Of a stretch of DNA of 50,898 nucleotides, positions 3,019 through 18,336 are shown one piece after another. Below the pieces are notes generated by a model that did not search any database, was not told where the DNA came from, and saw only the letters and a list, made by a program, of their open reading frames with translations. A program made the position numbers and the translations under genes. Every line of letters starts with the position of its first letter. Within the stretch, counting starts at the first letter, position 1. This DNA comes from Candidatus Zambryskibacteria bacterium RIFCSPHIGHO2_01_FULL_46_25. GTDB taxonomy: Bacteria; Patescibacteriota; Minisyncoccia; Phycocordibacterales; Zambryskibacteraceae. Location: NCBI GenBank assembly GCA_001825155.1, contig MHVH01000003.1:1-50898 (forward strand). The letters run 5' to 3'.

Positions 3019-3621
3019 ATGCACCCAAAGAAAGAAAGAACACTTGTAGTTATCAAGCCGGACGGAATACAAAGAACTCTTATAGGCGAGATCATCGGAA
3101 GATTCGAAAAAATTGGTTTCAAGCTGGTGGCTATGAAGATGCTCGTTCCCACGGAAGAGTTTGTGGAGCAACATTACACTCTTGACCCGGAGTGGAGGAG
3201 GGTTACCGGCGAAAAACGCGTTAAAGCGGCAAAAGAGAAGGGAGAAGTACTCCCAACCGAAGATCCGTACGAAATTACGGCCATAATCCTTCAAAAACTC
3301 AAGAAATATCTTGCTTCAGGTCCGGTTGTAGCCATGATTTGGGAAGGCGCACATGCCGTTGAGATTGTAAGGAAGCTTGTCGGCGGGACGGAGCCGAGAT
3401 CTACCGATGTGGGGTCGATTCGCGGGGATTATGTGATGGATTCGTACATTATGGCGGATAGTGACGACCGGGCGATACGCAATCTGGTACATGCTTCGGG
3501 TTCTGTAGAAGAAGCCAACAAGGAAATCGCCCTCTGGTTCAGACCTGAAGAGGTCATCAACTACCGTCTTGTGCAAGAAGAGATACTTTATGACGTTAAT
3601 CTAGACGGTATTTTAGAATAG
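3019..3621 (+). CDS. ndk: Nucleoside diphosphate kinase
   Basis: Transfers the gamma phosphate between NTPs and NDPs. Seen: the N-terminal ERTLVVIKPDGIQR, K13, the GSIRGDY loop (residues 132-138) and the active-site histidine H158 in NLVHASGS. The protein is 200 aa instead of about 140. The extra 40-50 residues lie in the middle (around 60-100, including a charged VKAAKEKGE stretch), a known long form of NDK. A TATAAT box directly precedes the ATG. Confidence 0.93.
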   Translation: MHPKKERTLVVIKPDGIQRTLIGEIIGRFEKIGFKLVAMKMLVPTEEFVEQHYTLDPEWRRVTGEKRVKAAKEKGEVLPTEDPYEITAIILQKLKKYLASGPVVAMIWEGAHAVEIVRKLVGGTEPRSTDVGSIRGDYVMDSYIMADSDDRAIRNLVHASGSVEEANKEIALWFRPEEVINYRLVQEEILYDVNLDGILE

Positions 3622-3713
3622 GCTTTTTTCGCGAAGCAACATAAGGTCGGATACGGAATGTTTTGGGCTTCACGTCTATATGATATCCACACATTTTTTC
3701 TCCGCTCAAACGT

Positions 3714-3719
3714 TATAAT
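3714..3719 (+). promoter_or_regulatory. -10 box of the 6S-like RNA
   Basis: A perfect TATAAT lies six bases before the first paired base of the downstream RNA. A -35 box is not obvious. Confidence 0.6.
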
Positions 3720-3725
3720 GTGTAC

Positions 3726-3877
3726 AGGGTTATTTGAGGTATTATCTAGCTAAAACATTTTAAGGGAGTCTTATGTCTTTGCGCCCCTTGGGGCATGAAG
3801 CTGACACCCACCTAGTTTTAAAAACTAGGGTATACCAAAATAACCCTACCAAAAATTCCGACTTCGGTCGGTATTTT
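3726..3877 (+). ncRNA. ssrS: 6S RNA-like structured RNA with terminator
   Basis: A long closing helix is formed by AGGGTTATTT + GGTAT (3726-3742) and ATACC + AAATAACCCT (3832-3847): 15 pairs broken by one small asymmetric loop. Inside lies a large, mostly unpaired bubble and an apical arm with the GCCC/GGGC hairpin and a 3x3 internal loop (about 3777-3800), plus a CCTAGTTTT/AAAACTAGG hairpin (3811-3829). This closing stem - central bubble - apical arm plan is that of 6S RNA, which mimics an open promoter and binds RNA polymerase. A rho-independent terminator with stem CCGAC/GTCGG and a T run ends at about 3877. The assignment rests on architecture, not on a covariance search. Confidence 0.6.
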
Positions 3878-3897
3878 TGTTATGATAGACTGGCTCA

Positions 3898-4302
3898 ATG
3901 GAAAGGAAAAATTTCATACTGTTTTCAACTCTCATTTTAGCCATTGCCGTAACAATTCTGCACGTACTTGCAGGCGCTCTCTATTTATACTGGACTTATT
4001 GGTGGTTCGACTGGGTTACTCATTTTTTGACCGGCTTTACGGGGGCGCTCGGAATATATTGGGGACTTTTTCTTTCCGGTCTTATCTTTCACCGCGAACC
4101 GGGTAATAAATTTTTTGCCGGCGCGCTCGTTTTTTTCTTTGTCATGCTGGTAGGCGCGGGATGGGAAATATTTGAATACAGCAATGATATTACCGATTCA
4201 TACGAATCTTCCTACGGCCTAGATGTTCTCGTTGATCTTATTATGGACGCGAGCGGGGCTGTCTTAGCTGTTCTTGTGGTTTGGAGAAAGAACAATGGCT
4301 AA
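3898..4302 (+). CDS. Small polytopic membrane protein, YjdF/DUF2238-like
   Basis: A 134-aa protein with four predicted membrane helices. Polar motifs WWFDWVTHFLTGF and WEIFEYSND...DLIMDASG recall the conserved Asp/His/Glu pattern of the YjdF (DUF2238) family, whose function is unknown. A TATGAT box lies 11 bases before the ATG. Its 3' end overlaps the start of the beta-CASP RNase gene by eight bases. Confidence 0.6.
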   Translation: MERKNFILFSTLILAIAVTILHVLAGALYLYWTYWWFDWVTHFLTGFTGALGIYWGLFLSGLIFHREPGNKFFAGALVFFFVMLVGAGWEIFEYSNDITDSYESSYGLDVLVDLIMDASGAVLAVLVVWRKNNG

Positions 4303-5599
4303 ACTTACTTGCTATGGCGGTGCTGGTTCGGCTACCGGAGCCAATTTTCTTTTGGAATTTGAAAAAAATAAAATTCTTGTTGACTGTGGCTTGCTTCAAG
4401 GCAGCGCTCTCGCCGTGAACGCGAACAAAGAAAAATTTTCTTACGACCCGGCATCAATCGATGCACTCTTTGCCACTCACGCTCACATTGACCACATCGG
4501 ACTCATACCGAAGCTCTACCGGGAAGGCTTCCGAGGCGATATTTATTCGACTAGGGCGACGAAGAGCATCGCGGAATTCCTGCTGGCGGACGCGGTAAAG
4601 ATAAATGCCGATGACGCGGAGCCGATATATGGCGCGGACGACGTTTTAGGCTGCTTATCGCTCTGGAAAACGCTTGAGTATCATCAGAAACTCGAACTCA
4701 ACGGCATTAAGGTCGAATTTTTGAACGCCGGGCATATACTAGGCTCCGCGATGGCGCAGTTTTCCTTCCCATTGGATAGGAAGATGCTCTTTACCGGAGA
4801 TTTGGGTAACTCGCCGTCGCCCTTACTGCCTGACGTGGAGAAAGTCGGCGGGCTCGACTATCTGCTCATGGAGAGCGTGTATGGCGACAGAAACCATGAG
4901 AGCAAAGAAGAGAGAGACAGAGAGTTCGAAAGGGTGGTGCGCGAAGCAATAGGACGCAAGGGCACCCTGCTTATACCAGCCTTCTCGCTTGAGCGGACGC
5001 AAGTATTGCTCACGAAGCTCAAAGCGCTTCTTGAAGAGAAGAAGATTCCTTCCGTACCGGTATATCTAGACTCACCTCTAGCTATTCGTATTACCGAAAT
5101 TTATGAGAGGGTCAAAGAGGGGAATGATTTCAATTTTCAAGAACTTCACGAGACTGCAAAGATTGCTGATTCGCGCGAAATCGCAGAGGTGCGAGGGGCA
5201 AAAATTATTATAGCCGGTTCCGGCATGTCTACTGCTGGGCGGATTGTCGGACATGAAGAAATGTATTTGCCCGACCCGCGCGCAACCATTCTCCTTGCCG
5301 GCTATCAGGCTCAAGGCACGCTTGGCAGAGAGATAGAAGAAGGGCTCCGATCGATAACTATCGGAGAAAAAAAGATTATCGTGAGGGCGAAGGTTGAGAA
5401 AATAAGCGGCTTCTCCTCGCACGCGGACTCCAACGCGCTGGTCGGCTTCGCTTCCGAGAGCGCCAAGACGCTTAAAAAAGTTTTTGTCGCCATGGGTGAA
5501 CCAAAGTCACAGATATTCCTCGCCCAGCGCTTGCGCGACGAACTCGGCGTGGACGCTGTAGCTACCGAGAAGGGGAAGAGCTATGAATTAGATTTATAA
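4295..5599 (+). CDS. Beta-CASP metallo-beta-lactamase fold RNase
   Basis: Predicted metal-dependent RNase of the MBL/beta-CASP superfamily (the group of RNase J, YSH1 and CPSF73-like enzymes), acting in RNA processing or decay. HAHIDH is at residues 62-67, a ligand lies in FTGDLGNS, and the C-terminal beta-CASP motifs include GSGMSTAGR and the histidine of GFSSHADSNAL. The start at 4295 (MAKLTCYGGA) is the conserved N-terminus; the longer reading from 4274 is not needed. The last 12 codons (TEKGKSYELDL-stop) recur downstream of the transposase at 6316-6351. Confidence 0.9.
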   Translation: MAKLTCYGGAGSATGANFLLEFEKNKILVDCGLLQGSALAVNANKEKFSYDPASIDALFATHAHIDHIGLIPKLYREGFRGDIYSTRATKSIAEFLLADAVKINADDAEPIYGADDVLGCLSLWKTLEYHQKLELNGIKVEFLNAGHILGSAMAQFSFPLDRKMLFTGDLGNSPSPLLPDVEKVGGLDYLLMESVYGDRNHESKEERDREFERVVREAIGRKGTLLIPAFSLERTQVLLTKLKALLEEKKIPSVPVYLDSPLAIRITEIYERVKEGNDFNFQELHETAKIADSREIAEVRGAKIIIAGSGMSTAGRIVGHEEMYLPDPRATILLAGYQAQGTLGREIEEGLRSITIGEKKIIVRAKVEKISGFSSHADSNALVGFASESAKTLKKVFVAMGEPKSQIFLAQRLRDELGVDAVATEKGKSYELDL

Positions 5600-5614
5600 T
5601 AAGCTTGAAATCCG

Positions 5615-5641
5615 TCACTTAGCTGTCCGACAGCTAAGTGA
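5615..5641. repeat. REP palindrome, type A, copy 1
   Basis: Arms CACTTAGCTGTC and GACAGCTAAGTG flank a single C; adjacent T and A extend the pairing. The same palindrome recurs right behind the transposase gene and at 8491. It lies 15 bases after the RNase stop codon. Confidence 0.85.
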
Positions 5642-5661
5642 GATGTGGTACAATAAAAGGC

Positions 5662-6282
5662 ATGAGAGATGCGCCATTGGTGGAAGGGGAATATTATCAC
5701 TTATACAATCGTGGAGTTGATAAGCGTTCTATTTTCCAGGACAGAACAGATTTGGCGCGCTTTTTGCAAAGCATTGATGAGTTCAATTGTATCGATCCTA
5801 TTGGCAGTATTTTTATGAACTCTTTTAATAAAGATAGAAAATCCAAGGGGAAATTGATCGAAATAATTTGTTATTGTTTAAATCCGAATCACTACCACTT
5901 TGTTGTCAAACAACTTGTAGAAAATGGGATAAGTGAATTTATGAAAAGGTTGTCTGGTGGTTATACCCAATACTTTAATAACAGATACGGAAGAAATGGG
6001 GCCTTGTTTCAAGGAAAATTTAAATCAAAGCGTATTGATACTGACGAGTACCTTTTACATGTGAGCGTTTATGTGAACTTGAATAACAGATTTAAGGGAA
6101 AGCCACATTTAATTAGTGAATCAAGTTGGAATGAATATTTGGGAAGGGGAGGCATATGTCTTTGTAAACCAGACATTATTTTGGATCGATTCAAAAATTC
6201 AAAAGAATATGAAAAATTCGCCTTGTCTTCCCTAAAAGACATATTAAGGAGAAAGGAGTTAGAAAAAGAGCTTGAATTTTAG
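5662..6282 (+). CDS. REP-associated tyrosine transposase (RAYT, Y1/HUH type)
   Basis: Single-strand DNA transposase of the IS200-like Y1 superfamily, which nicks and moves REP palindromes. The HUH metal motif is HYH at residues 77-79 (CLNPNHYHFVVKQ); the catalytic tyrosine is in GGYTQYFNNRYGRNG (101-110), followed by the family signature GALFQGKFKSKRI. The ATG at 5662 sits seven bases after a TACAAT box and starts the conserved EGEYYHLYNRG block. Identical-type palindromes lie 20 bases before the start and directly at the stop. AT-rich codon use differs from the flanking RNase and ABC genes, which supports transfer. Confidence 0.9.
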   Translation: MRDAPLVEGEYYHLYNRGVDKRSIFQDRTDLARFLQSIDEFNCIDPIGSIFMNSFNKDRKSKGKLIEIICYCLNPNHYHFVVKQLVENGISEFMKRLSGGYTQYFNNRYGRNGALFQGKFKSKRIDTDEYLLHVSVYVNLNNRFKGKPHLISESSWNEYLGRGGICLCKPDIILDRFKNSKEYEKFALSSLKDILRRKELEKELEF

Positions 6283-6309
6283 CCACTTAGCTGTTCGACA
6301 GCTAAGTGG
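6283..6309. repeat. REP palindrome, type A, copy 2
   Basis: Arms CCACTTAGCTGT and ACAGCTAAGTGG around TCG. It begins at the base after the transposase stop codon, so transposase and palindromes form one unit. Confidence 0.85.
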
Positions 6310-6315
6310 TGACTA

Positions 6316-6351
6316 ACCGAGAAGGGGAAGAGTTGTGAGCTGGATTTGTAA
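6316..6351 (+). pseudogene. Displaced 3' tail of the beta-CASP RNase gene
   Basis: Reads TEKGKSCELDL-stop, matching the last 12 codons of the RNase gene (5564-5599) without gaps. Differences are mostly synonymous (AGC/AGT, GAA/GAG, TTA/CTG, TTA/TTG) with one Tyr/Cys change, so both copies diverged as coding sequence. This is the scar of an insertion at the gene's 3' end; one tail was displaced and the other carried in. Confidence 0.85.
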
Positions 6352-6610
6352 GCTTGCATCGCCTTTGTTTCTATGGTAGCGTTTAAATACATGAACACAA
6401 TCATGTCACAACTGAATATGACCAAGACCCCGCTTTTTGCCGTGGGTGTTCTTGGGCGCAACGCTGTATCAGAGTGGCATGATGTTGTAAGTATTTGATA
6501 ATCTCCTAAAATCGAATTCTTAAAACATCGTGCCGACCGGCACGATGTTTTAGTTCTTTATGTTCTTTCACGCTCTTTGACATTCACACTAACATTGTAA
6601 GGAGAAGCGA
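6352..6610. other. Intergenic stretch with weak 35-aa ORF
   Basis: Holds an ORF of 35 codons (6391-6498, starting MNTIMSQLNM) with no ribosome site, which is probably not a gene. A strong hairpin follows at 6522-6551. A TTGACA at 6577 lies upstream of the ABC gene without a clear -10. The AAGGAG at 6600-6605 is the ABC ribosome site. Confidence 0.5.
6522..6551. terminator. Hairpin terminator
   Basis: Perfect stem AAAACATCGTGCCG / CGGCACGATGTTTT with a two-base loop. It may be the original terminator of the RNase gene, now separated from it by the RAYT insertion. Confidence 0.75.
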
Positions 6611-8407
6611 ATGGCAGACAATGTTCGTGAGAGGCGAAATGCGCTTCTCTATCTCTTCGGAGAAACCTGGAAGTATTCGGCGGGCAACCGCGACAAGATC
6701 GTGTGGTATTGGCTCATGTTTATCGCGGCCAATGTCATCGCATTCTTGTGCCAGCCCCTGGCCATGGCCAAGATTATGGATGTCATCCAGAAAGAGGGCA
6801 TTACCGACGCTAATTTCGGTTTGCTCAAATGGCTGCTGGTCTTCACCCTAGCGGTGGAACTGGCCTTCTGGTCTCTCCATGGTCCGGCGAGATGCATCGA
6901 GAGGACCAACGCCTTTAAGGCGCGTCTGAACTATCGGAAGTATCTTCTCAAAGGAGTGATGACTCTGCCTCTTGAATGGCACAACGATCACCACTCCGGC
7001 GACACCATCGACAAGATCGGGAAGGGAACAGACGGACTGTTCTCGTTCGCTCACGGGTCCTTCATGCCCATCTCGAGCTTGGCGCAGCTTATCGTCAGTC
7101 TCGTCATGCTGACCATCTTCAGCGGCTCTCGCAGTCTGGCGATTGCGCTCGTGATGATCTTCGTTTCCGGTTTTATCACCGTCCGGTTCGACCGGAAGAT
7201 GATAAGCCAGTACGAGGAACTTGACCACGCGGACAATAAGATTGCGGAAAGCGTCCATGACGCCATCAGCAACATTACGACGGTCATCATCTTGCGCATG
7301 GAAAAACGGGTCTTCGGGACCATCATGCGTAAGGTCGAGAAGCCGTATGACCTCTTCCGTCGCAATCAGCAGCTGAATGAAATCAAATGGTTTCTGACCA
7401 GTCTCTGCTGCGCCGTGATGGCGGCGGCCGTGCTCTACACGCACTTCCGCCAAAACATCGGCGTACCGAAGGCAACACTCGTCGGGAGCACGTATCTCCT
7501 GATGAGCTACCTCGGCCGGATAAGCGATCTCTTCTTTCAGTTCACCAATCTATACGGCGACTTGGTGAGATATCAGTCGCGGATGATGAATGCCGAGGAA
7601 CTCGCACTCGACTTTAAAGAAGAGAACTTCGCCAACCACGTGCTGCCGAAAAACTGGCGACAACTCAAGGTGGAGAATCTCTGCTTCTCGCACCGAAACG
7701 GCGGGAACGGGGAACTGCATCTCGATAATGTCTCCTTCTCTCTCGGAAGAGGGGAGCATATGGCTGTCATAGGGCCGAGCGGAGGCGGGAAAACCACTCT
7801 TCTCTGGGCCCTGCGCGATCTGCATCGTTCCGGAAGCGTTCACCTCTTCGTGGACGGGCAGGGTGTGGCCGAAGGATTCGGCGGTATCTCGCGCGACATC
7901 GCGCTGGTGCCGCAGGATCCGGAAATCTTCGCCACCACGATACTCGAGAACATCACCATGGGAGAAGAGTATGAAGCGGAACTTATCCGCCACTACTCCA
8001 ACCTCACGTGCTTCACGGAAGTGGCGGAGAAACTGCCGAAGAAATTCGACTCCTCCATCAAGGAAAAAGGGGTCAATCTCTCCGGTGGCGAACAGCAGCG
8101 GCTGGCTCTGGCGAGAGGACTCCTCGCAAGCCACGACAAGAGCATTGTGCTCCTCGACGAGCCGACATCAAGCCTGGATGCGGCAACGGAGATGAAAGTG
8201 TACCGGAACATCTTCAGAGAATTCCGGGACAAGACCATCGTCGCTTCCGTGCACAGGCTGCACCTCCTACCCATGTTCGACAAGATTCTCTTGTTTAACG
8301 GTGGCAGAATTATCGCATCGGGGAGCTTCGCGGACCTACTCGCGAACTCTCCCGAATTCCAAGAACTCTGGGCGCAGTACAACACGGAGAAAAAGGAGAC
8401 TGTGTAA
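6611..8407 (+). CDS. ABC transporter, fused permease and ATPase
   Basis: A half-transporter of the MsbA/exporter type: six membrane helices in the first 320 residues, then the nucleotide-binding domain. Walker A GPSGGGKT is at 388-395, Q-loop Q435, signature LSGGEQQ at 490-496, Walker B SIVLLDEPTSSLD at 511-523 and H-loop histidine in ASVHRL. At 598 aa it has the normal length. It starts after AAGGAGAAGCG, a good ribosome site. It is higher in GC than the transposase next to it and ends with its own perfect terminator, so it is a single-gene unit. The substrate cannot be told. Confidence 0.9.
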   Translation: MADNVRERRNALLYLFGETWKYSAGNRDKIVWYWLMFIAANVIAFLCQPLAMAKIMDVIQKEGITDANFGLLKWLLVFTLAVELAFWSLHGPARCIERTNAFKARLNYRKYLLKGVMTLPLEWHNDHHSGDTIDKIGKGTDGLFSFAHGSFMPISSLAQLIVSLVMLTIFSGSRSLAIALVMIFVSGFITVRFDRKMISQYEELDHADNKIAESVHDAISNITTVIILRMEKRVFGTIMRKVEKPYDLFRRNQQLNEIKWFLTSLCCAVMAAAVLYTHFRQNIGVPKATLVGSTYLLMSYLGRISDLFFQFTNLYGDLVRYQSRMMNAEELALDFKEENFANHVLPKNWRQLKVENLCFSHRNGGNGELHLDNVSFSLGRGEHMAVIGPSGGGKTTLLWALRDLHRSGSVHLFVDGQGVAEGFGGISRDIALVPQDPEIFATTILENITMGEEYEAELIRHYSNLTCFTEVAEKLPKKFDSSIKEKGVNLSGGEQQRLALARGLLASHDKSIVLLDEPTSSLDAATEMKVYRNIFREFRDKTIVASVHRLHLLPMFDKILLFNGGRIIASGSFADLLANSPEFQELWAQYNTEKKETV

Positions 8408-8437
8408 CGAACAAATATTGTGAGACAAATCAAAACC

Positions 8438-8466
8438 AAACCGCCCTGGCGATGCCAGGGCGGTTT
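8438..8466 (+). terminator. Terminator of the ABC transporter
   Basis: Perfect stem AAACCGCCCTGGC / GCCAGGGCGGTTT with loop GAT, followed by a T-rich stretch. Confidence 0.85.
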
Positions 8467-8490
8467 CTCTTTGGATCAGAGAATTTTAGT

Positions 8491-8515
8491 CACTTAGCTG
8501 TCGGACAGCTAAGTG
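8491..8515. repeat. REP palindrome, type A, copy 3
   Basis: Arms CACTTAGCTGT and ACAGCTAAGTG around CGG. The left flank GAATTTTAG matches the flank of copy 2, the end of the RAYT gene. A mobilised copy without the transposase. Confidence 0.85.
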
Positions 8516-8533: not shown

Positions 8534-8878
8534 TTATTTAACTGTTTCTAGGATTTTTACAAAAGTTTCGGGGTGGTTCTGGGCGAGGTTGGCAAGGATT
8601 TTGCGGTCGAGGGCGACGTTCGCCTTCTTCAACATCGGGATGAACTTGGAGTAGGAAACGCCGTTCTCTTTGAGGAGAGCCGACATGCGGACGTTCCAGA
8701 GGCGACGGAAGTCGCCCTTCTTGTCCTTCCTATGGGCGAAGGAATATGTGCCGGCGTGGAAGATGGCTTCGTTTGCCATGCGCTCCTTGGTTGAGCGACC
8801 GTGGCGATAACCCTTAACCTTACGGAGAATATTCCGGCGGCTCTTCAATGCGTTGACTCCTTTCTTGACTCTTGTCAT
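8534..8878 (-). CDS. rplT: 50S ribosomal protein L20
   Basis: Binds 23S rRNA early in large-subunit assembly. The N-terminus MTRVKKGVNALKSRRNILRK and the RDKKGDFRRLWNVRMSA block (here HRKDKKGDFRRLW) are diagnostic. 114 aa, normal length. It is last in the infC-rpmI-rplT cluster, 29 bases after rpmI. Confidence 0.97.
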   Translation of the reverse strand: MTRVKKGVNALKSRRNILRKVKGYRHGRSTKERMANEAIFHAGTYSFAHRKDKKGDFRRLWNVRMSALLKENGVSYSKFIPMLKKANVALDRKILANLAQNHPETFVKILETVK

Positions 8879-12119: not shown

Positions 12120-12242
12120 ATTATAGCCCTACTTCGCTAAAGCTACGAAGGGCACTGCTTCTTGAGTAACAAAAAACCGCTTACGGCGGTGGTTTGTTGC
12201 TAAGGTTTACAGTGCTTGCACTGCGAAGCCTTGGCGAAGCAG
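12120..12242. other. Hairpin-rich spacer after tmRNA
   Basis: Contains CTTCG...CGAAG and CTGCGAAGCC/GGCGAAGCAG palindromes of a GCGAAG-type dispersed repeat, and a likely ssrA terminator (stem ACCGC/GCGGT flanked by A and T runs, about 12172-12198). Confidence 0.55.
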
Positions 12243-12647
12243 TGGAGATGGGCGGAATCGAACCGCCGTGCAAGACGGAATCCGACTGAGGTCTACGCGG
12301 AGTAGTTAGCTTCTCCGCCGGTTGGCGGATGATTCGAGACTTGAGATACAAAGCGAACGAAAACTCTCAAATCTCTATCCTCTTAGTTTCGTCCCGCTTA
12401 GAGGAATGGCGGAACAGAGTCCCATGTGATTACACGATATCTCTTACCTGAGACTTCTCAGAGCATCGCGCAGCCCGTTACGCGAGATTAAACTCGAGCG
12501 TAGGCGAACTGGAAATCGCTAGCCGTATAAAACGGCGAGACGACCGCAAAAGGTGATTTTGCATTTAGGTTTGAAGCGGATTTAAGAGTCGCTTCGGCTC
12601 TTCCGCGCGTCAGTCAGATGTCCGGCTTGTCTAGGCCGATCATCCCC
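12243..12647 (-). ncRNA. ssrA: tmRNA
   Basis: Rescues stalled ribosomes with SmpB. The 5' end GGGGATG pairs with CATCTCC at the 3' end; the T-arm GGCGGTTCGATTCCGCC is intact and CCA is not encoded. A pseudoknot precedes the tag: AAGAG/CTCTT with loop GAAGCG pairing to CGCTTC. The resume codon is probably the GCA at 12561-12559. The reading frame then runs 24 codons from AKSPFAVV to FAYARV and a TAA that lies in a hairpin loop, as expected. The ending ARV differs from the usual LAA-type tag. A TCCGCC/GGCGGA palindrome (12314-12329) sits inside the RNA. It lies just after smpB on the same strand. Confidence 0.93.
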
Positions 12648-12681
12648 GTATGGAAATAATTTTCAATTTCCAATTTTCAAT

Positions 12682-13119
12682 TTACAATGAACGTTTGATT
12701 TCTCGTTCGACATCACGCTTCTTGATAGCTTGGCGCTTGTCGAACTTCTTCTTGCCTCGGGCTATGGCGATGTCCGCCTTGAGAAATCTACCCTTATTAT
12801 ACACCGAAAGCGGGACGATTGTCAACCCCTTGGTGTGCTCAGCTTCCGCCAGCTCGGCTATTTCCGGGGTGGTAAGAAGAAGCTTTCTCGGCCTTGTTGC
12901 GTCATAGTCAGCGGGAGTGTTCTTGGGTTGATAGGGAGGAATCTCGGCGCTGATGAGGAAAGCCTCTCCACCGCGCACTGCTACAAACGCGCCACGGAGG
13001 TTTATCTTGCCGGCTCTCACCGATTTCACCTCCTGGCCCGAGAGTTCTAGCCCCGCGGAAAATTTGCCGAGTATCTCGTAGTCGAAGAGAGCTTTTCTAT
13101 TATTGGCAAACTGCGTCAT
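12682..13119 (-). CDS. smpB: SsrA-binding protein SmpB
   Basis: Carries tmRNA to stalled ribosomes. Typical blocks: NRKALFDYEILGKFSAGLELSGQEVKSVRAGKINL, then AFLISAEIPPY and the basic C-terminal tail GKKKFDKRQAIKKRD. 145 aa, normal length. The ATG is four bases after a minus-strand TATAAT that overlaps the ftsH -10. ssrA follows 34 bases downstream. Confidence 0.96.
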   Translation of the reverse strand: MTQFANNRKALFDYEILGKFSAGLELSGQEVKSVRAGKINLRGAFVAVRGGEAFLISAEIPPYQPKNTPADYDATRPRKLLLTTPEIAELAEAEHTKGLTIVPLSVYNKGRFLKADIAIARGKKKFDKRQAIKKRDVEREIKRSL

Positions 13120-13138: not shown

Positions 13139-15067
13139 ATGCGTGACCAACTCAAGAAGACCAAAAGAATAAGAATTCTGCCGCCGAAGCTTGGCGGCAA
13201 TCCTCGGGGCAGAAGCCCTTTTACTCAAGGCGCGCTCGCCTTGGTCATTTTCTTTATCTTGGTAAGCACTTACTCGCTTCTCTCCGGTATCTCCGAGGAT
13301 AAGGCGGAAATTTCTCTCTCCGAGCTCGCGAGCGAAGTAACGGCGGGGAACATTGCATCCATTACCGTAAACGGCGATGACCTCAATATCACATACAGGA
13401 ATGGCGATGAGAAACTCTCCAAGAAAGAAGTCGGCACCGCGCTTACCACCACGCTCAAGAATTACGAAGTGCCGATGGAGGCTCTCGCTGGCGTGGAAAT
13501 CGACGTGAAAAACAACCAAGGTATTTTCTACTGGATAATATCGCTCGCGCCGATACTCTTGCCAATCCTTTTTATAGTCTTCTTCCTCTGGTTCTTGTCT
13601 CGGCAAGTGAAGGGCGCCGGCATGCAGGCCTTCACCTTCGGGCAGTCGAAAGCGAGGATGACGCATCCTTCCGACAAGAGTCAGAAAGTAACTTTCAAGG
13701 ATGTGGCCGGTTGTAGGGAAGCGAAGGAAGAATTGCGGGAGATTGTCGACTTTTTGAAAAATCCGAAGAAGTTCCTCGACATCGGCGCGAGAATTCCGAA
13801 AGGCATTCTGCTTATGGGGGCGCCCGGCACCGGCAAAACTTTATTGGCGCGGGCAGTCGCCGGGGAAGCCGGCGTGTCGTTCTTCTCCATCTCCGGGTCG
13901 GAGTTCGTAGAAATGTTCGTGGGTGTCGGTGCTTCGAGAGTGCGGGACCTCTTCGACCTGGCGAAGAAGGCGGCTCCGGCTATCATCTTCGTCGACGAGA
14001 TTGACGCCGTGGGTCGAGTGCGAGGAACGGGAGTGGGAGGAGGCAATGACGAGCGTGAACAGACGCTAAACCAGATACTGGTAGAGCTAGACGGCTTCGA
14101 GCCCAACGAAAAAGTGATTGTCATGGCGGCGACCAACAGGCCGGACGTGCTCGACCCGGCGCTTCTGCGCCCCGGACGCTTCGACAGGCGAGTGACTCTC
14201 GACCTGCCGGACAGGAAAGATAGGGAAGAGATTCTTGTAATTCACGCGCGCAAAAAACCTTTTGCCGAAGATGTGCACTTGCCGCTTATTGCCGAGAGGA
14301 CGCCGGGCTTCTCGGGCGCGGACCTCTACTCGCTTATGAATGAAGCGGCGATTCTCGCGGCGCGCGAGAATCGCACGCAAGTTTCCCAGTTCGACCTCAT
14401 CCGCTCGATAGAGAAGGTGATGCTCGGTCCGGAGAGGAAGAGCCACGTCCTCTCGCAGAAAGAGAAGGAGCTCACGGCTTTCCACGAAGCGGGACACGCG
14501 GTGGTCGCATCCGTGCTTCCTTACGCCGACCCGGTGCACAAAATTTCCATAATTTCTCGCGGGCGAGTGGCGGGCTATGTGATGAAGTTGCCTCTGGAAG
14601 ACAAAAGGCTCCAGAGCAAGAAAGAATTCCTCGACGATATCGCCGTGGGACTTGGTGGCTATGTGGTGGAGCAAACTTTATATAACGATATTACGACCGG
14701 ACCCTCGAACGACTTACAAGTGGCAACGGCGCTCGCGCGGGATATGGTGACGAAGTACGGCATGAGCGAGAAGATGGGACCCATCGCGCTCGAAAGCTCG
14801 GGGGGCAGGCCGCTCTTCGGCATGGGGGTTGGGGAGAAGGATTACTCGGAGCGAGTGAGCGCGGAGATAGACGCGGAAGTCTCGCGTATCATGCTTGAGG
14901 CGAAGGCGAAGGTGGAGAAAATTATCAAGGAGCACAAGAAAGCTCTTCACGCCATTGCCGAACGCTTGATAGAAGTGGAGACGATAGAGCAGAAAGAATT
15001 TGAAGGTATATTAGTTGCGCATGGCATAGTACCGAAGAAGAAAAAAGATATAGAGCATCAGAAATGA
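13139..15067 (+). CDS. ftsH: ATP-dependent zinc metalloprotease FtsH
   Basis: Membrane-anchored AAA protease that degrades unassembled membrane proteins. Two membrane helices (about 31-50 and 131-153) bracket an extracytoplasmic domain. Walker A GAPGTGKT is at 227-234, Walker [10 protein letters not shown] at 282-290, the second region of homology in [19 protein letters not shown], and the zinc site HEAGH at 449-453. The start at 13139 fits a leaderless transcript; an ATG three codons upstream (13130) lies within the -10. Bases 13179-13199 form a palindrome inside the cytoplasmic N-terminus. The last codons, [15 protein letters not shown], are repeated downstream several times. Confidence 0.96.
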
Positions 15068-15070
15068 GAA

Positions 15071-15115
15071 AACGCCGACACAATTGTGATTGTGCCGGCG
15101 TTCTGGCCTGAGGCC
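15071..15115. terminator. Double hairpin terminator, copy 1
   Basis: Stem AACGCCGaCACAAT / ATTGTGcCGGCGTT, followed by GGCC/GGCC. It starts four bases after the ftsH stop and serves both ftsH and the minus-strand gene. Almost identical DNA stands at 17855-17899 behind another gene. Confidence 0.8.
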
Positions 15116-15126
15116 GGGGGAGGGAA

Positions 15127-15282
15127 CTAGTCGAAGCAGGCGGCGACACCTGCGGGGATAGCGATCAGACCGACGAGTGCCGCGACGGGCGCGAGACCGA
15201 CCGCGGTGAGAATCCCGATGTTGGCCGCGATTCCTAGGAATTGCAGGGCCTTGGCGGCCCTGCTGTTATGCTGCTGTGCCAT
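15127..15282 (-). CDS. Small hydrophobic protein, 51 aa
   Basis: Starts MAQQHNSRAAKALQ and continues as one long Ala/Gly/Val/Ile-rich hydrophobic stretch, ending AACFD. It is probably a small membrane protein. AAAGGAGGT lies six bases before the ATG, and a consensus promoter and a terminator bracket the gene, so it is a complete monocistronic unit. It is inserted between ftsH and the first displaced ftsH tail. No family recognised. Confidence 0.75.
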   Translation of the reverse strand: MAQQHNSRAAKALQFLGIAANIGILTAVGLAPVAALVGLIAIPAGVAACFD

Positions 15283-15300
15283 GTGGCACCTCCTTTATAT

Positions 15301-15329
15301 ATCCTAGCATACTTCATCTTATTTGTCAA
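15301..15329 (-). promoter_or_regulatory. Promoter of the 51-aa gene
   Basis: Minus strand: TTGACA (15329-15324), 17 bases, TAGGAT (15306-15301). The spacer ends in GTATGC, shared with the promoters at 16559 (ATATGC) and 18395. Confidence 0.85.
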
Positions 15330-15476
15330 GCACTTTTTGTGTATCATAAAAATACCCTTATTTAAAGCCACATTAAGTTTCCTGGATTAAACTAGGCGTA
15401 AAATAATGAGAAAAATAGAAATGATTTGATAAAAGGTGCGTTTTATTTGTATATATTGTCTGTATAATAAAAAATT
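15330..15476. other. AT-rich spacer before hicB
   Basis: No gene seen. A TATAAT at about 15465-15470 lies eight bases before hicB and is its likely -10. Confidence 0.5.
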
Positions 15477-15701
15477 ATGAAGAAAACTCGAATTTTTACG
15501 GCTATCTATAAAAAGGTTTCTGGTGGTTATTCTACTTGGATTGAAGAAATGCCAAATGTTATTTCGGAAGGCAAGACTCGTAAGGAAGCTGAAAGAAACA
15601 TCAAAGATGCACTCTCTCTTATGCTTGAGACTAACTTTATTATGTCTATGAAAGACGCTACCGGAAAAGTTGAGCGCTCGAACATCAAGGTGGCTGCATG
15701 A
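15477..15701 (+). CDS. hicB: HicB-family antitoxin
   Basis: 74 aa with the partial RNase H-like fold of HicB: YKKVSGGYSTWIEEMPNVISEGKTRKEAERNIKDALSLML. It neutralises HicA. No C-terminal DNA-binding domain is visible, so autoregulation is not evident. The stop overlaps the hicA start by four bases, and a -10 box directly precedes the ATG. Confidence 0.88.
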   Translation: MKKTRIFTAIYKKVSGGYSTWIEEMPNVISEGKTRKEAERNIKDALSLMLETNFIMSMKDATGKVERSNIKVAA

Positions 15702-15889
15702 ACAGAGCCAAATTAATTCTACATTTACTCAAACACGGCTGTATTCTCTTGCGCGAAGGTTCGAGACATTCTATTTACAAGAATCTCATTACGGGAGCAC
15801 AAACCACTGTGCCGAGAAAATCTACACTGCTTTTATTTACGGCTAAAGGAATTTGCAAACAGCTTGGCGTTTCTTGGTTCCGTAAATAA
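15698..15889 (+). CDS. hicA: HicA-family mRNA interferase toxin
   Basis: 63 aa, dsRBD-like fold, cleaves mRNA on the ribosome. The family core is REGSRHSIYKN...TTVPRKSTLLLFTAKGICKQLGV. The catalytic histidine is probably the His of SRH. The order antitoxin-toxin is the reverse of the classic hicAB order but common. The pair lies between two copies of the ftsH 3' tail. Confidence 0.88.
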   Translation: MNRAKLILHLLKHGCILLREGSRHSIYKNLITGAQTTVPRKSTLLLFTAKGICKQLGVSWFRK

Positions 15890-15901
15890 CACTCTTTCAT
15901 T

Positions 15902-15949
15902 CACGGAATAGTGCCGAAGAAGAAAAAAGATATAGAGCATCAGAAATAA
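15902..15949 (+). pseudogene. Displaced ftsH tail, copy 2 (16 codons)
   Basis: Reads [15 protein letters not shown]-stop. Against the real ftsH end (15020-15067) it differs at CAT/CAC, GGC/GGA, GTA/GTG and TGA/TAA, all synonymous. Such a pattern requires a history as a functional coding end. Confidence 0.9.
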
Positions 15950-15961
15950 TTTAACCTCACC

Positions 15962-15986
15962 CACTTGGAAACTCAGTTTCCAAGTG
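15962..15986. repeat. REP palindrome, type B, copy 1
   Basis: Arms CACTTGGAAACT and AGTTTCCAAGTG around C. Same length and same CACTT...AAGTG ends as the type A palindromes but a different core. Flanked on both sides by ftsH tails. Confidence 0.85.
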
Positions 15987-16010
15987 AAAGATATAGAGCA
16001 TCAGAAATAA
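15987..16010 (+). pseudogene. Displaced ftsH tail, copy 3 (8 codons)
   Basis: Reads KDIEHQK-stop (TAA), directly abutting the palindrome. Confidence 0.85.
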
Positions 16011-16027
16011 ATTTTTGGAATGAAAAA

Positions 16028-16052
16028 GGGCCTCGCGCGTAGCGCGAGGCCC
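16028..16052 (-). terminator. Cassette terminator
   Basis: Perfect stem GGGCCTCGCGC / GCGCGAGGCCC with loop GTA. Ends the minus-strand gene that follows. Confidence 0.85.
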
Positions 16053-16065
16053 CAAAGACGATCGG

Positions 16066-16443
16066 TCAGTCGATATCGCCGAGCCAGTGCTCGACGCGGT
16101 CTTTCTCGACCGCCGAGCACTGGGCCGAAGCCCACTCCGGTCGCCGACGGCCCTGACGGTCCTTGCACTGGTATGCAAGGACGAGTTGACCGTTGACCCG
16201 GAGGAAGAGGTACCAGCCGATGAAGGCTGACACCCCCATCCGCCACTGTACCGTACCCAGGGTCGGGTGATTGATAGTTTCCCACCCTCGGCGCGATCTC
16301 TTGGAGATGCCGACTTCGGTGAGGCTGGCGAGGAGGTTCCAGATCCTTGCAAGCCTCCAATCATTGTAGTTCACCATCTCCGGCACTTCGCCGGAGACGA
16401 GCGCCGAAAGGGTAGACACAAACCAGCCCTGGTTTCGAATCAT
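16066..16443 (-). CDS. Hypothetical protein, single-gene cassette
   Basis: 125 aa from the ATG at 16443, which follows CAGGAGGACATC. The ATG at 16467 has no ribosome site. Trp-rich, basic, with no signal peptide or clear membrane span; not recognised. It has its own promoter, a structured leader of about 110 bases and a terminator. It lies between ftsH-tail copies 3 and 4. Confidence 0.7.
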   Translation of the reverse strand: MIRNQGWFVSTLSALVSGEVPEMVNYNDWRLARIWNLLASLTEVGISKRSRRGWETINHPTLGTVQWRMGVSAFIGWYLFLRVNGQLVLAYQCKDRQGRRRPEWASAQCSAVEKDRVEHWLGDID

Positions 16444-16552
16444 GATGTCCTCCTGTCCAGCGTTCATGACACTGGCTCTGTGAGCGTCCGCCTTAGCGGT
16501 CCGCGAGGAACTCCGGTGTCGCCGGAGCGCGAGAGGGTCTAACCCTCAGTCT
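16444..16552 (-). other. Structured 5' leader of the 125-aa gene
   Basis: Read on the minus strand: three consecutive hairpins, GAGGGT/ACCCTC, CTCCGG/CCGGAG and CCGC/GCGG, between the promoter and the ribosome site. Could be a regulatory leader; no known riboswitch is recognised. Confidence 0.5.
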
Positions 16553-16558
16553 TTTTAC

Positions 16559-16587
16559 ATCTTAGCATATCTCACTCTATTTGTCAA
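16559..16587 (-). promoter_or_regulatory. Cassette promoter
   Basis: Minus strand TTGACA, 17 bases, TAAGAT; the spacer ends in ATATGC. Confidence 0.85.
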
Positions 16588-16638
16588 GGACTTTTTCTGT
16601 TTCATTAAAATAGGTCTAGAAATAAGGGTTTCTGCCAA

Positions 16639-16659
16639 AATATAGAGCATCAAAAATAG
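16639..16659 (+). pseudogene. Displaced ftsH tail, copy 4 (7 codons)
   Basis: Reads NIEHQK-stop (TAG), with CAA for CAG and one Asp/Asn change relative to ftsH. Confidence 0.75.
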
Positions 16660-16670
16660 TTTGACCTACC

Positions 16671-16695
16671 CACTTGGAAACTGAGTTTCCAAGTG
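16671..16695. repeat. REP palindrome, type B, copy 2
   Basis: Same arms as the copy at 15962 with G at the centre. About 80 bases around it (tail-palindrome-tail) repeat the arrangement at 15930-16010 with few differences. Confidence 0.85.
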
Positions 16696-16719
16696 AAAGA
16701 CATAGAGCATCAGAAATAG
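16696..16719 (+). pseudogene. Displaced ftsH tail, copy 5 (8 codons)
   Basis: Reads KDIEHQK-stop (TAG), with GAC for GAT (synonymous). Confidence 0.82.
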
Positions 16720-16722
16720 AAA

Positions 16723-16755
16723 AAGGCTCCGGCCGCGTGATGCGGCTGAAGCCTT
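16723..16755 (-). terminator. Cassette terminator
   Basis: Stem AAGGCT..GGCCGC / GCGGCT..AGCCTT, ending the minus-strand lipoprotein gene. Confidence 0.75.
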
Positions 16756-16770
16756 CGTGCGTTGCCGCCG

Positions 16771-17055
16771 TTAGCGGCAAACGACCCAGTAGCCTTCGTC
16801 TCTCCCGTATCCTCCGGTTCCGCTGCCGGCCACAGAAAAGTTGGCAGGGCACTGGTGAGTAGCGAGAAATTTCGAGAGAGCGTTCCCGAAGTTCGCTCCA
16901 GTCAACGGGAAATAGTAGACCCCGTTTCCATAGTTGAGGAAGTCTTTCGACTCCTGCTCAGCCGCCGCGACATTCTTGATGTTCTTGGGGTTGGCGGCCA
17001 GATCACAGGCCGCCAGAATAGCGGCCAAGAACAGGACACAAATCAGTCTCATCAT
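16771..17055 (-). CDS. Small predicted lipoprotein
   Basis: 94 aa (or 93 from the second ATG). Signal MRLICVLFLAAILAAC: positive start, hydrophobic core, lipobox LAAC with Cys as the mature residue 1. The mature part, about 78 aa, has two more cysteines (QCPANF, VVCR) and Gly-rich turns; function unknown. AGGAGAGT precedes the start. Own promoter and terminator: a one-gene cassette. Confidence 0.78.
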   Translation of the reverse strand: MMRLICVLFLAAILAACDLAANPKNIKNVAAAEQESKDFLNYGNGVYYFPLTGANFGNALSKFLATHQCPANFSVAGSGTGGYGRDEGYWVVCR

Positions 17056-17084
17056 CGGTACTCTCCTGAAGGTAATCTTGATAC

Positions 17085-17113
17085 ATTATATACTTTATAA
17101 AATATTTTGTCAA
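17085..17113 (-). promoter_or_regulatory. Cassette promoter
   Basis: Minus strand TTGACA, 17 bases, TATAAT: full consensus. Confidence 0.88.
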
Positions 17114-17137
17114 ACACTTTTTGTATTTCGTCAGTAA

Positions 17138-17461
17138 TTACGCTCTGGCTTTAGATTGGGTAGCCATGGCGAAGAGCATAAAATATTTTTCCAAATCAGC
17201 CAGGCTGCTTTTATATTCACTGCCACCGAGAACCGCATCGGCGAAAGTTTCTCTTGCCCTATCCAATTCGGCTCTGCGCCTCTTCCAGCGAGCGTCCATT
17301 TGGATTAGGTCAAACAAAGACATTGCTCGCTCTACTGCTCCCCAAAATGATTTCTCATCCTTATTTTGCCATTTGGCGGCACGACCCACTTCGCTTCCCA
17401 GATTGCCGAGCTGTTCCGCGAGCGAGAGCGCGGACCATCTTTCTTTTGAAATTGCGACCAT
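17138..17461 (-). CDS. Hypothetical all-helical protein paired with DUF5674
   Basis: 107 aa: SLAEQLGNLGSEVGRAAKWQ..., then RARETFADAVLGGSEYKSSLADLEKYFMLFA. Predicted helical bundle, no catalytic motif visible. It starts one base after the DUF5674 stop, so they form one operon. A two-gene toxin-antitoxin-like unit is possible but unproven. Confidence 0.7.
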   Translation of the reverse strand: MVAISKERWSALSLAEQLGNLGSEVGRAAKWQNKDEKSFWGAVERAMSLFDLIQMDARWKRRRAELDRARETFADAVLGGSEYKSSLADLEKYFMLFAMATQSKARA

Positions 17462-17462
17462 A

Positions 17463-17810
17463 TTACTTTATTAATTTGCCTACTATTTCTCGAATTTTGT
17501 TCTGGACCGAAATATCTTCTACCCCGCGGGTCTTATTTCCGAGCGCCGGCTTGAGATTGATCATAGAGTCAAACTCGATAAAATCTTCCCCGTCTTTATC
17601 CAAATATAAATTTATGCCCCAAGTATTGGCGCCTTGGGAACATTCTTTTTCTATAAGGAGAGATTGGATATCGACATGCAGTTCGCCTCCGACTCCCATG
17701 ATACTCTGCTCAATATCCACCACGGCCTTTATTATGTCCCCATATTGTTCATGAGCTAAGCTTCTTAATTCTTTTCTGCCCATACCATCTTTAATGATTC
17801 TTGTTTCCAT
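17463..17810 (-). CDS. DUF5674 family protein
   Basis: 115 aa. The core AVVDIEQSIMGVGGELHVDIQSLLIEKECSQGANTWGINLY...DFIEFDSMINLKPALGNKTRGVED is that of DUF5674, a family of unknown function frequent in Patescibacteria. Upstream of, and coupled to, the helical protein gene. Confidence 0.8.
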   Translation of the reverse strand: METRIIKDGMGRKELRSLAHEQYGDIIKAVVDIEQSIMGVGGELHVDIQSLLIEKECSQGANTWGINLYLDKDGEDFIEFDSMINLKPALGNKTRGVEDISVQNKIREIVGKLIK

Positions 17811-17830
17811 GAAAGCAATCTTATCACACT

Positions 17831-17850
17831 AAGATAAAGCATCAGAAATG
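17831..17850 (+). pseudogene. Degenerate ftsH tail, copy 6
   Basis: AAGATAAAGCATCAGAAATG retains most of the ftsH-tail bases with a deletion and no stop. The next 60 bases match those that follow the true ftsH end. Confidence 0.7.
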
Positions 17851-17854
17851 GGAA

Positions 17855-17899
17855 AACGCCGACACAATTGTGATTGTGCCGGCGTTCTGGCCTGAGGCC
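17855..17899 (-). terminator. Double hairpin terminator, copy 2
   Basis: Nearly identical to 15071-15115 although the genes it ends (51-aa hydrophobic protein there, lipoprotein here) are unrelated. Confidence 0.8.
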
Positions 17900-17910
17900 G
17901 GGGGAGGGAG

Positions 17911-18336
17911 CTAGCGGTTGCCAATGTTGTCGTCGGCGTTCTCGATCAGTTCCTTGATCCGGGTGACCGTCGCCTCTGGCGTGTCACCCGAATTGATCAC
18001 GCGCTCAATGTTGGCGTAGGTTGTCTCGTGTTCGACGAGCCGCGCGAGGTCGTCGCCGCAACGCGCGGTAACGGTGTTGAGCGGGAGCATCTCGGTCCAG
18101 ATGTCGCCTCCGTCGCTCACGAAAACGCGAACGGCCTGGACTTGCCCGTTGACGCAGACGACGTAGACGGCGCCGATCCTGCTGACCGGCGTGCCGTCCG
18201 TGGCGGAGGTGGCGAGTACGGTGCCGCCGTACTCGCCCTTCACGTAGCGGTCGACGTCGGTCTTCAAGGCGTCACTGCACCCGACGATGCCGAAGCACGA
18301 GACGGCCAGCATGATTAGAAAGCAAATCTTCTTCAT
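17911..18336 (-). CDS. Predicted lipoprotein
   Basis: 141 aa from the ATG at 18336, which follows GGGAGAGATTCCG and lies downstream of a consensus promoter; longer starts would precede the transcription start. Signal MKKICFLIMLAVSCFGIVGC with lipobox IVGC. The mature domain has VYVVCVNGQVQAVRVFVSDGG and an acidic helical end. Function unknown. Single-gene cassette. Confidence 0.78.
   Translation of the reverse strand: MKKICFLIMLAVSCFGIVGCSDALKTDVDRYVKGEYGGTVLATSATDGTPVSRIGAVYVVCVNGQVQAVRVFVSDGGDIWTEMLPLNTVTARCGDDLARLVEHETTYANIERVINSGDTPEATVTRIKELIENADDNIGNR

Follow-up and report, generated by a model that had tools for sequence, protein, structure and literature searches.

Integration at the 3′ end of a host gene with displacement of the native tail is familiar from prophage e14 in icd of E. 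coli. Tandem repetition of a palindrome together with its flank is known from P. fluorescens SBW25, where REPIN/REP clusters that include the 5′ flank lie beside RAYT genes (Bertels and Rainey 2011, PMC3116915). RAYT (TnpA-REP) genes encode Y1_Tnp proteins, occupy a fixed locus in relatives, and are flanked by REP palindromes that are also scattered genome-wide (PMC2817692, PMC6006769). In competent bacteria, homology-facilitated illegitimate recombination joins DNA by homology at one end and illegitimately at the other (PMC3240628). Literature that names RAYT together with the candidate phyla radiation yielded two chance mentions only. Here we describe an interval with likenesses to all of these systems. 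It lies in the window, the whole stretch of 50,898 nucleotides that was analysed, which is bases 1-50898 of contig C3 in a Patescibacterial genome of 582 kb in 7 contigs (G000). Candidatus Zambryskibacteria and other Parcubacteria group bacteria are among the closest relatives that bear a name, which makes the host a small, probably Zambryskibacteria-like Patescibacterium. The interval has the following features.

4295..5599, + strand: beta-CASP metallo-beta-lactamase RNase gene (Pfam Beta-Casp, Lactamase_B, RMMBL; one full match in G000)
5564..5599, + strand: tail 1, the last 12 codons of the RNase, functional copy, ACCGAGAAGGGGAAGAGCTATGAATTAGATTTATAA
5600..5615, + strand: linker 1, TAAGCTTGAAATCCGT, containing AGCTTGAA, which is similar to the 3′ end of RAYT (shuffle P ~0.003)
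5616..5640, + strand: REP1, type A, 25-bp palindrome
5662..6282, + strand: Y1 (HUH) transposase, RAYT type (Pfam Y1_Tnp; orthologous position in G012, G006 and G028)
6284..6308, + strand: REP2, 25-bp palindrome, right of RAYT
6309..6315, + strand: GTGACTA, junction between the two modules
6316..6351, + strand: tail 2 (tail′), the displaced RNase tail, ACCGAGAAGGGGAAGAGTTGTGAGCTGGATTTGTAA
6349..6356, + strand: TAAGCTTG, left part of linker 2, common to linker 1 (0/5000 shuffles as good)
6357..8480, + strand: ABC cassette inside linker 2; its leader, terminator and ABC unit also occur in G012 (C36) and G001 (C6)
6391-6498: leader peptide of the cassette, 35 residues (MNTIMSQLN...SEWHDVVSI)
~6520-6553: terminator of the cassette
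6611-8407: ABC transporter of the cassette
8481..8490, + strand: GAATTTTAGT, right part of linker 2, resembling the last codons of RAYT, GAATTTTAGC
8491..8515, + strand: REP3, 25-bp palindrome, adjoining rplT
8534..8878, − strand: rplT (ribosomal protein L20), closing the interval on the right; same boundary in relatives

The repeated codons have the coordinates and sequences given in the original prediction, and 30/36 positions are identical (83%). All six differences are transitions, which fall at positions 18-33 of 36 and affect five codons; four codon differences are synonymous and one changes Tyr to Cys, a count that was predicted and is borne out. A match of at least 30/36 has a chance of ~6e-10 in 2 kb, so the repeat did not arise by chance. 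We scanned 1,564 ORFs of the genome for an in-frame repeat of their own tail within 6 kb and found only two standouts, the RNase gene and ftsH; matches of 27-29/36 were palindromes or repeated coding motifs. Very long repeats that came from loci truncated by a contig end were left out of the analysis. The similarity of the RNase tails extends beyond the stop, with TAAGCTTG after both. A separate full RNase gene as the source of the displaced tail, which had been named as a condition that would overturn the prediction, is ruled out, because the genome holds a single copy and no further full RNase gene anywhere.

As predicted, a transposase gene lies between two 25-bp palindromes (at 5616 and 6284) behind the RNase. 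Its product reaches 33.8 bits for Pfam Y1_Tnp (cut-off 23) and 22.9 bits for NCBIfam REP_Tyr_transpos (cut-off 80), the sole family match, from a model that may not cover this clade. The equivalog cut-off is not reached, and we therefore use RAYT as a type name and not as an equivalog; the Y1_Tnp domain, the flanking REPs and the motifs suggest this assignment. By eye, the translation contains NPNHYHF and SVYVNLNN, an HUH motif and a catalytic tyrosine. REP1 and REP2, which flank the gene, belong to 23 REP sites of two types in the genome. In these respects the gene is like described RAYT genes (PMC2817692, PMC6006769), including its fixed locus in relatives; it differs in being Patescibacterial, in scoring below the NCBIfam equivalog cut-off, in having REPs also inside genes, and in the REP 5′ flanks, which are not conserved and carry no shared tetranucleotide, such as GTAG, ahead of the REP foot.

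The prediction described this part of the interval correctly but ended too early on the right, where it missed a third REP at 8491. With 6357-8480 taken out, a 75-nt sequence remains that aligns over the full length of module 1 (5564-5640, comprising tail, linker and REP1). A second module (6316-6356 plus 8481-8515), a complete copy of the first, is accordingly split by a 2.1-kb cassette of leader peptide and ABC transporter, and the displaced tail begins this longer repeat of tail, linker and REP on its left side. Linker 2 is a hybrid, the left half matching linker 1 and the right half matching the end of RAYT. The GAATTTTAG that precedes REP3 equals the RAYT end and is absent before type A REPs outside the locus; the last bases of RAYT before REP2 are GAGCTTGAATTTTAGC. 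Linker 2 looks like a RAYT-deletion allele in which the RNase-side AGCTTGAA has been joined to the last codons of RAYT. The leader, terminator and ABC unit is found at three unrelated loci (window 6391-8407, G012 C36 and G001 C6), and its presence at unconnected sites in the latter two genomes marks it as an accessory cassette; it looks like an attenuation-controlled transporter.

Like e14 in icd, the locus has a second, synonymously diverged host-gene 3′ end adjoining foreign DNA, but the inserted piece is not a prophage. We found no tyrosine or serine integrase between the RNase tails and rplT; the three ORFs there are RAYT, the leader peptide and the ABC transporter, which speaks against an integrase-mediated 3′-end island. 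The likeness to the SBW25 clusters (PMC3116915) lies in a repeat unit of 5′ flank plus REP, found here in module 1 compared with the re-joined module 2 and in units at ftsH. Unlike in those clusters, the flank here is coding sequence from the end of a housekeeping gene, and the units number two, of which the second is split by the ABC cassette. The RNase locus can be seen as a further example of tandem REP-with-flank units of the kind already described.

Taken together, we favour, with moderate confidence, a reading in which the RNase-rplT segment holds two versions of the interval in tandem, joined by one non-allelic event, with RAYT as an old component and not the carrier of the tail. Version 1 would consist of RNase tail, linker, REP1, RAYT and REP2. 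Version 2 would consist of tail′, the hybrid linker and REP3, RAYT having been lost when the AGCTTGAA...REP repeats flanking it recombined; the RAYT-lacking RNase gene of this version would end in GAGTTGTGAGCTGGATTTGTAAGCTTG. The cassette would have been a later insertion into the hybrid linker. The versions would meet at REP2-GTGACTA-tail′. Most likely, sister-strain DNA would have been taken in, one of its ends integrating by homology and the other being attached at REP2 (GTGACTA) in an end-joining-like manner; in-situ tandem duplication is the alternative way of joining. We infer this order of events, the sister-strain origin and the joining mechanism. Homology-facilitated illegitimate recombination (PMC3240628), with its homology at one end and illegitimate join at the other, would yield the junction in the window and is a candidate mechanism for the RNase locus. 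The two-allele reading leaves the 7-nt GTGACTA without explanation.

The divergence of the two tails bears on the origin of the second. Had the six changes fallen at random on the displaced copy alone, at most one amino-acid change would be expected with P = 0.001, or P = 0.04 if only transitions are allowed. A coding-like divergence of the two tails is thus supported by their codons. Because the differences are almost only synonymous, the tails likely drifted apart when each was still the end of a working gene, a history that fits the joining of alleles from two strains better than an old in-situ duplication; one of them probably diverged in another lineage or allele. The statement that a target-site duplication would be identical holds for a recent duplication only. 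Both tails share a third-position T (TAT/TGT) where six relatives of the same genus have TAC. This shared base and the shared post-stop TAAGCTTG point to a single lineage, or to close sister lineages, as the origin of both tails, and link them to each other rather than to another sampled species. Comparison with the uninterrupted gene of the closest relative, the check proposed originally, marked neither tail as clearly native: each differs from that of G002 at 5/36 positions. The displaced tail also has unique Cys and GAG changes.

These figures weigh on a purely in-situ origin, in which the segment from tail to REP2 was tandemly duplicated (by slippage or end-joining at a REP hairpin), the second RAYT was then lost by REP-REP recombination, the ABC cassette was inserted and both tails drifted. 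The hybrid linker of module 2 is exactly what such a deletion would leave, tandem REP-with-flank units are known (PMC3116915), and the ftsH locus has tail-linker-REP-tail units. The coding-like divergence stands against it (P 0.001-0.04 if the displaced copy alone drifted), and a duplication followed by changes mixed over both copies, which is possible, requires several synonymous changes in the functional gene too. We consider this course of events unlikely, though a serious candidate. Another reading takes the tandem arrangement as an artefact of assembly that placed two strain variants of the interval one after the other. Two tandem alleles are the expected look of a chimeric join, short REPs are repeated across the genome, and assemblies of this kind are usually metagenome-derived, so that a chimeric join of two strains could occur. 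Yet at REP2-GTGACTA-tail′ there is no evident long stretch of common sequence that could have misled an assembler, and a second error would be needed for the comparable array at ftsH; we regard an artefact as very improbable.

We compared the same site in relatives, sampled as one genome per species; the two alleles of the window are known here only in tandem. In three relatives, G012 and G006 from the same genus and G028 from another genus of the family, the stop codon of the RNase gene is followed at a distance of 0-1 nt by a REP-RAYT-REP unit. Protein identity to the window is 69%, 70% and 65% for RAYT and 71%, 68% and 57% for the RNase in G012, G006 and G028, respectively, so that RAYT identity is roughly at or above that of the RNase. 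Since RAYT has diverged about as much as the RNase, it is old. A lone palindrome is found at the site in G005 and none in G002, G009 and G015. RAYT would then be an old resident of the site that was lost in some lineages, regain being less likely. Its vertical inheritance is read from position and identity only. Horizontal spread to the site is possible because the RAYT tree does not resolve the order of copies and G028 is the sole carrier at the RNase site among 9 genomes of its genus. A simple target-site duplication at RAYT insertion is rejected, as RAYT is common to species whose RNases are ~70% identical while the tails are 83% identical. After REP2 in G006 there is a 12-nt stretch, GAACTGGATTT, that matches the tail at 10/12 (P ~1e-3 for 30 positions); its significance is doubtful, and we do not rely on it as a decayed RNase tail.

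It had been proposed that one tail was carried in with the element. The part of this that stands is that a tail probably diverged elsewhere (P 0.001-0.04); RAYT insertion as its carrier is not supported. In such a RAYT-mediated 3′-end capture, the whole tail-REP1-RAYT-REP2 unit would have come from a different RNase locus in a single transposition and landed immediately 5′ of the resident tail, so that the gene regained its end. The insertion would indeed restore the RNase gene, the tails differ mostly synonymously, and the distance from REP to gene tail is 0-7 nt at three REP-tail junctions (one at the RNase, two at ftsH). However, G012 and G028 have RAYT at the same site with no second RNase tail, the flanks of the other REPs are clean, and a displaced gyrB tail exists without a REP. 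Characterised Y1 transposases are not known to take along ~50 nt of flank or to restore genes. We judge capture improbable. The locus shows that when a displaced and synonymously diverged gene tail lies next to a transposase, transposition is not a necessary explanation. The relatives place RAYT earlier than the duplication and suggest that alleles of a variable interval have recombined.

The original prediction had also linked REP mobility to 3′-end capture in general. We found no such rule: in a BLAST of the flanks of all 23 REP sites, repeated non-REP flanks occurred at the RNase and ftsH loci only. The ftsH tail AAGATATAGAGCATCAGAAAT is present six times in window 15020-17914 (at 15045, 15927, 15988, 16637, 16697 and 17834), and the copies surround small, mostly antisense ORFs. 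Tail copies lie on both sides of the ftsH-locus REPs at 15962 and 16671, one directly after each; the RNase tail′ starts 7 nt after REP2. Downstream of ftsH in 16 other genomes of the genus (within 1.5 kb or to the contig end) there are no such arrays. We also scanned portions of three more genomes for displaced tails. The gyrB tail of G001, a genome of the same genus, is FIQSNAKKAVLDV and recurs as FIQSNAKKAILDI (27/36), displaced by ~1 kb (L197, contig C1, minus strand, 3397-4440) and synonymously diverged. The ~1 kb of foreign DNA between gyrB and the displaced tail contains no hairpin, REP or RAYT. REP mobility is therefore not needed for displaced tails, given this case and the clean flanks of the other REPs. 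That all three REP-tail junctions in the genome start so close behind a REP does favour a role for REPs. RAYT might nick at the 3′ foot of a REP and start tandem duplications that rejoin to the neighbouring gene end, whereby REPs would repeatedly copy host gene ends; we hold this to be a long shot. Should junctions at REP ends turn out to follow a regular pattern, they would offer a way to trace and test RAYT activity in Patescibacteria. The RNase-rplT, ftsH and gyrB intervals are seemingly places where these small genomes take up new genes.

Several further arrangements were seen along the way. The cargo of the RNase-rplT interval varies by species (G000, G002, G006, G012): an ABC transporter, small ORFs, or a tRNA-like stretch with another ORF. 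Elsewhere in G001 (L210, contig C4, minus strand, 12140-13052), a 27-nt sequence that is both a glycosyltransferase tail and a methyltransferase start is repeated on both sides of a methyltransferase gene. A REP or RAYT directly follows uvrD, before rsmA, in G005, G013, G007 and the window's own genome, and directly follows secA in the latter; the G009 contig also has uvrD-RAYT and ends inside RAYT. A second RAYT lineage lies between uvrD and rsmA in several species (L042, L043, L045, L054), and at these loci palindromes are also found inside the RAYT and rsmA genes.

Of more general interest are REPs that form part of the reading frame of core genes. At least 11 of the 23 REP sites fall within ORFs and contribute the in-frame peptides LETEFPSG/LGNSVSKW or LAVGQLSG/LSVRQLSG (in-gene sites in G000 include C1:16896, C1:32020, C4:47965, C4:48645, C5:100909, C5:147481, C5:232746 and C5:237167). 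Going by their protein sequences, we take the genes to be like gatB (twice), groEL, valS, argS, miaA, tatD and lepA. These REPs resemble the Rickettsia palindromic elements, and here a RAYT family is also present in the genome. In groEL the REP replaces codons, with length unchanged compared with 12 relatives. Of the two REP copies in gatB, one occupies a variable loop and one makes the protein two residues longer than in most relatives.
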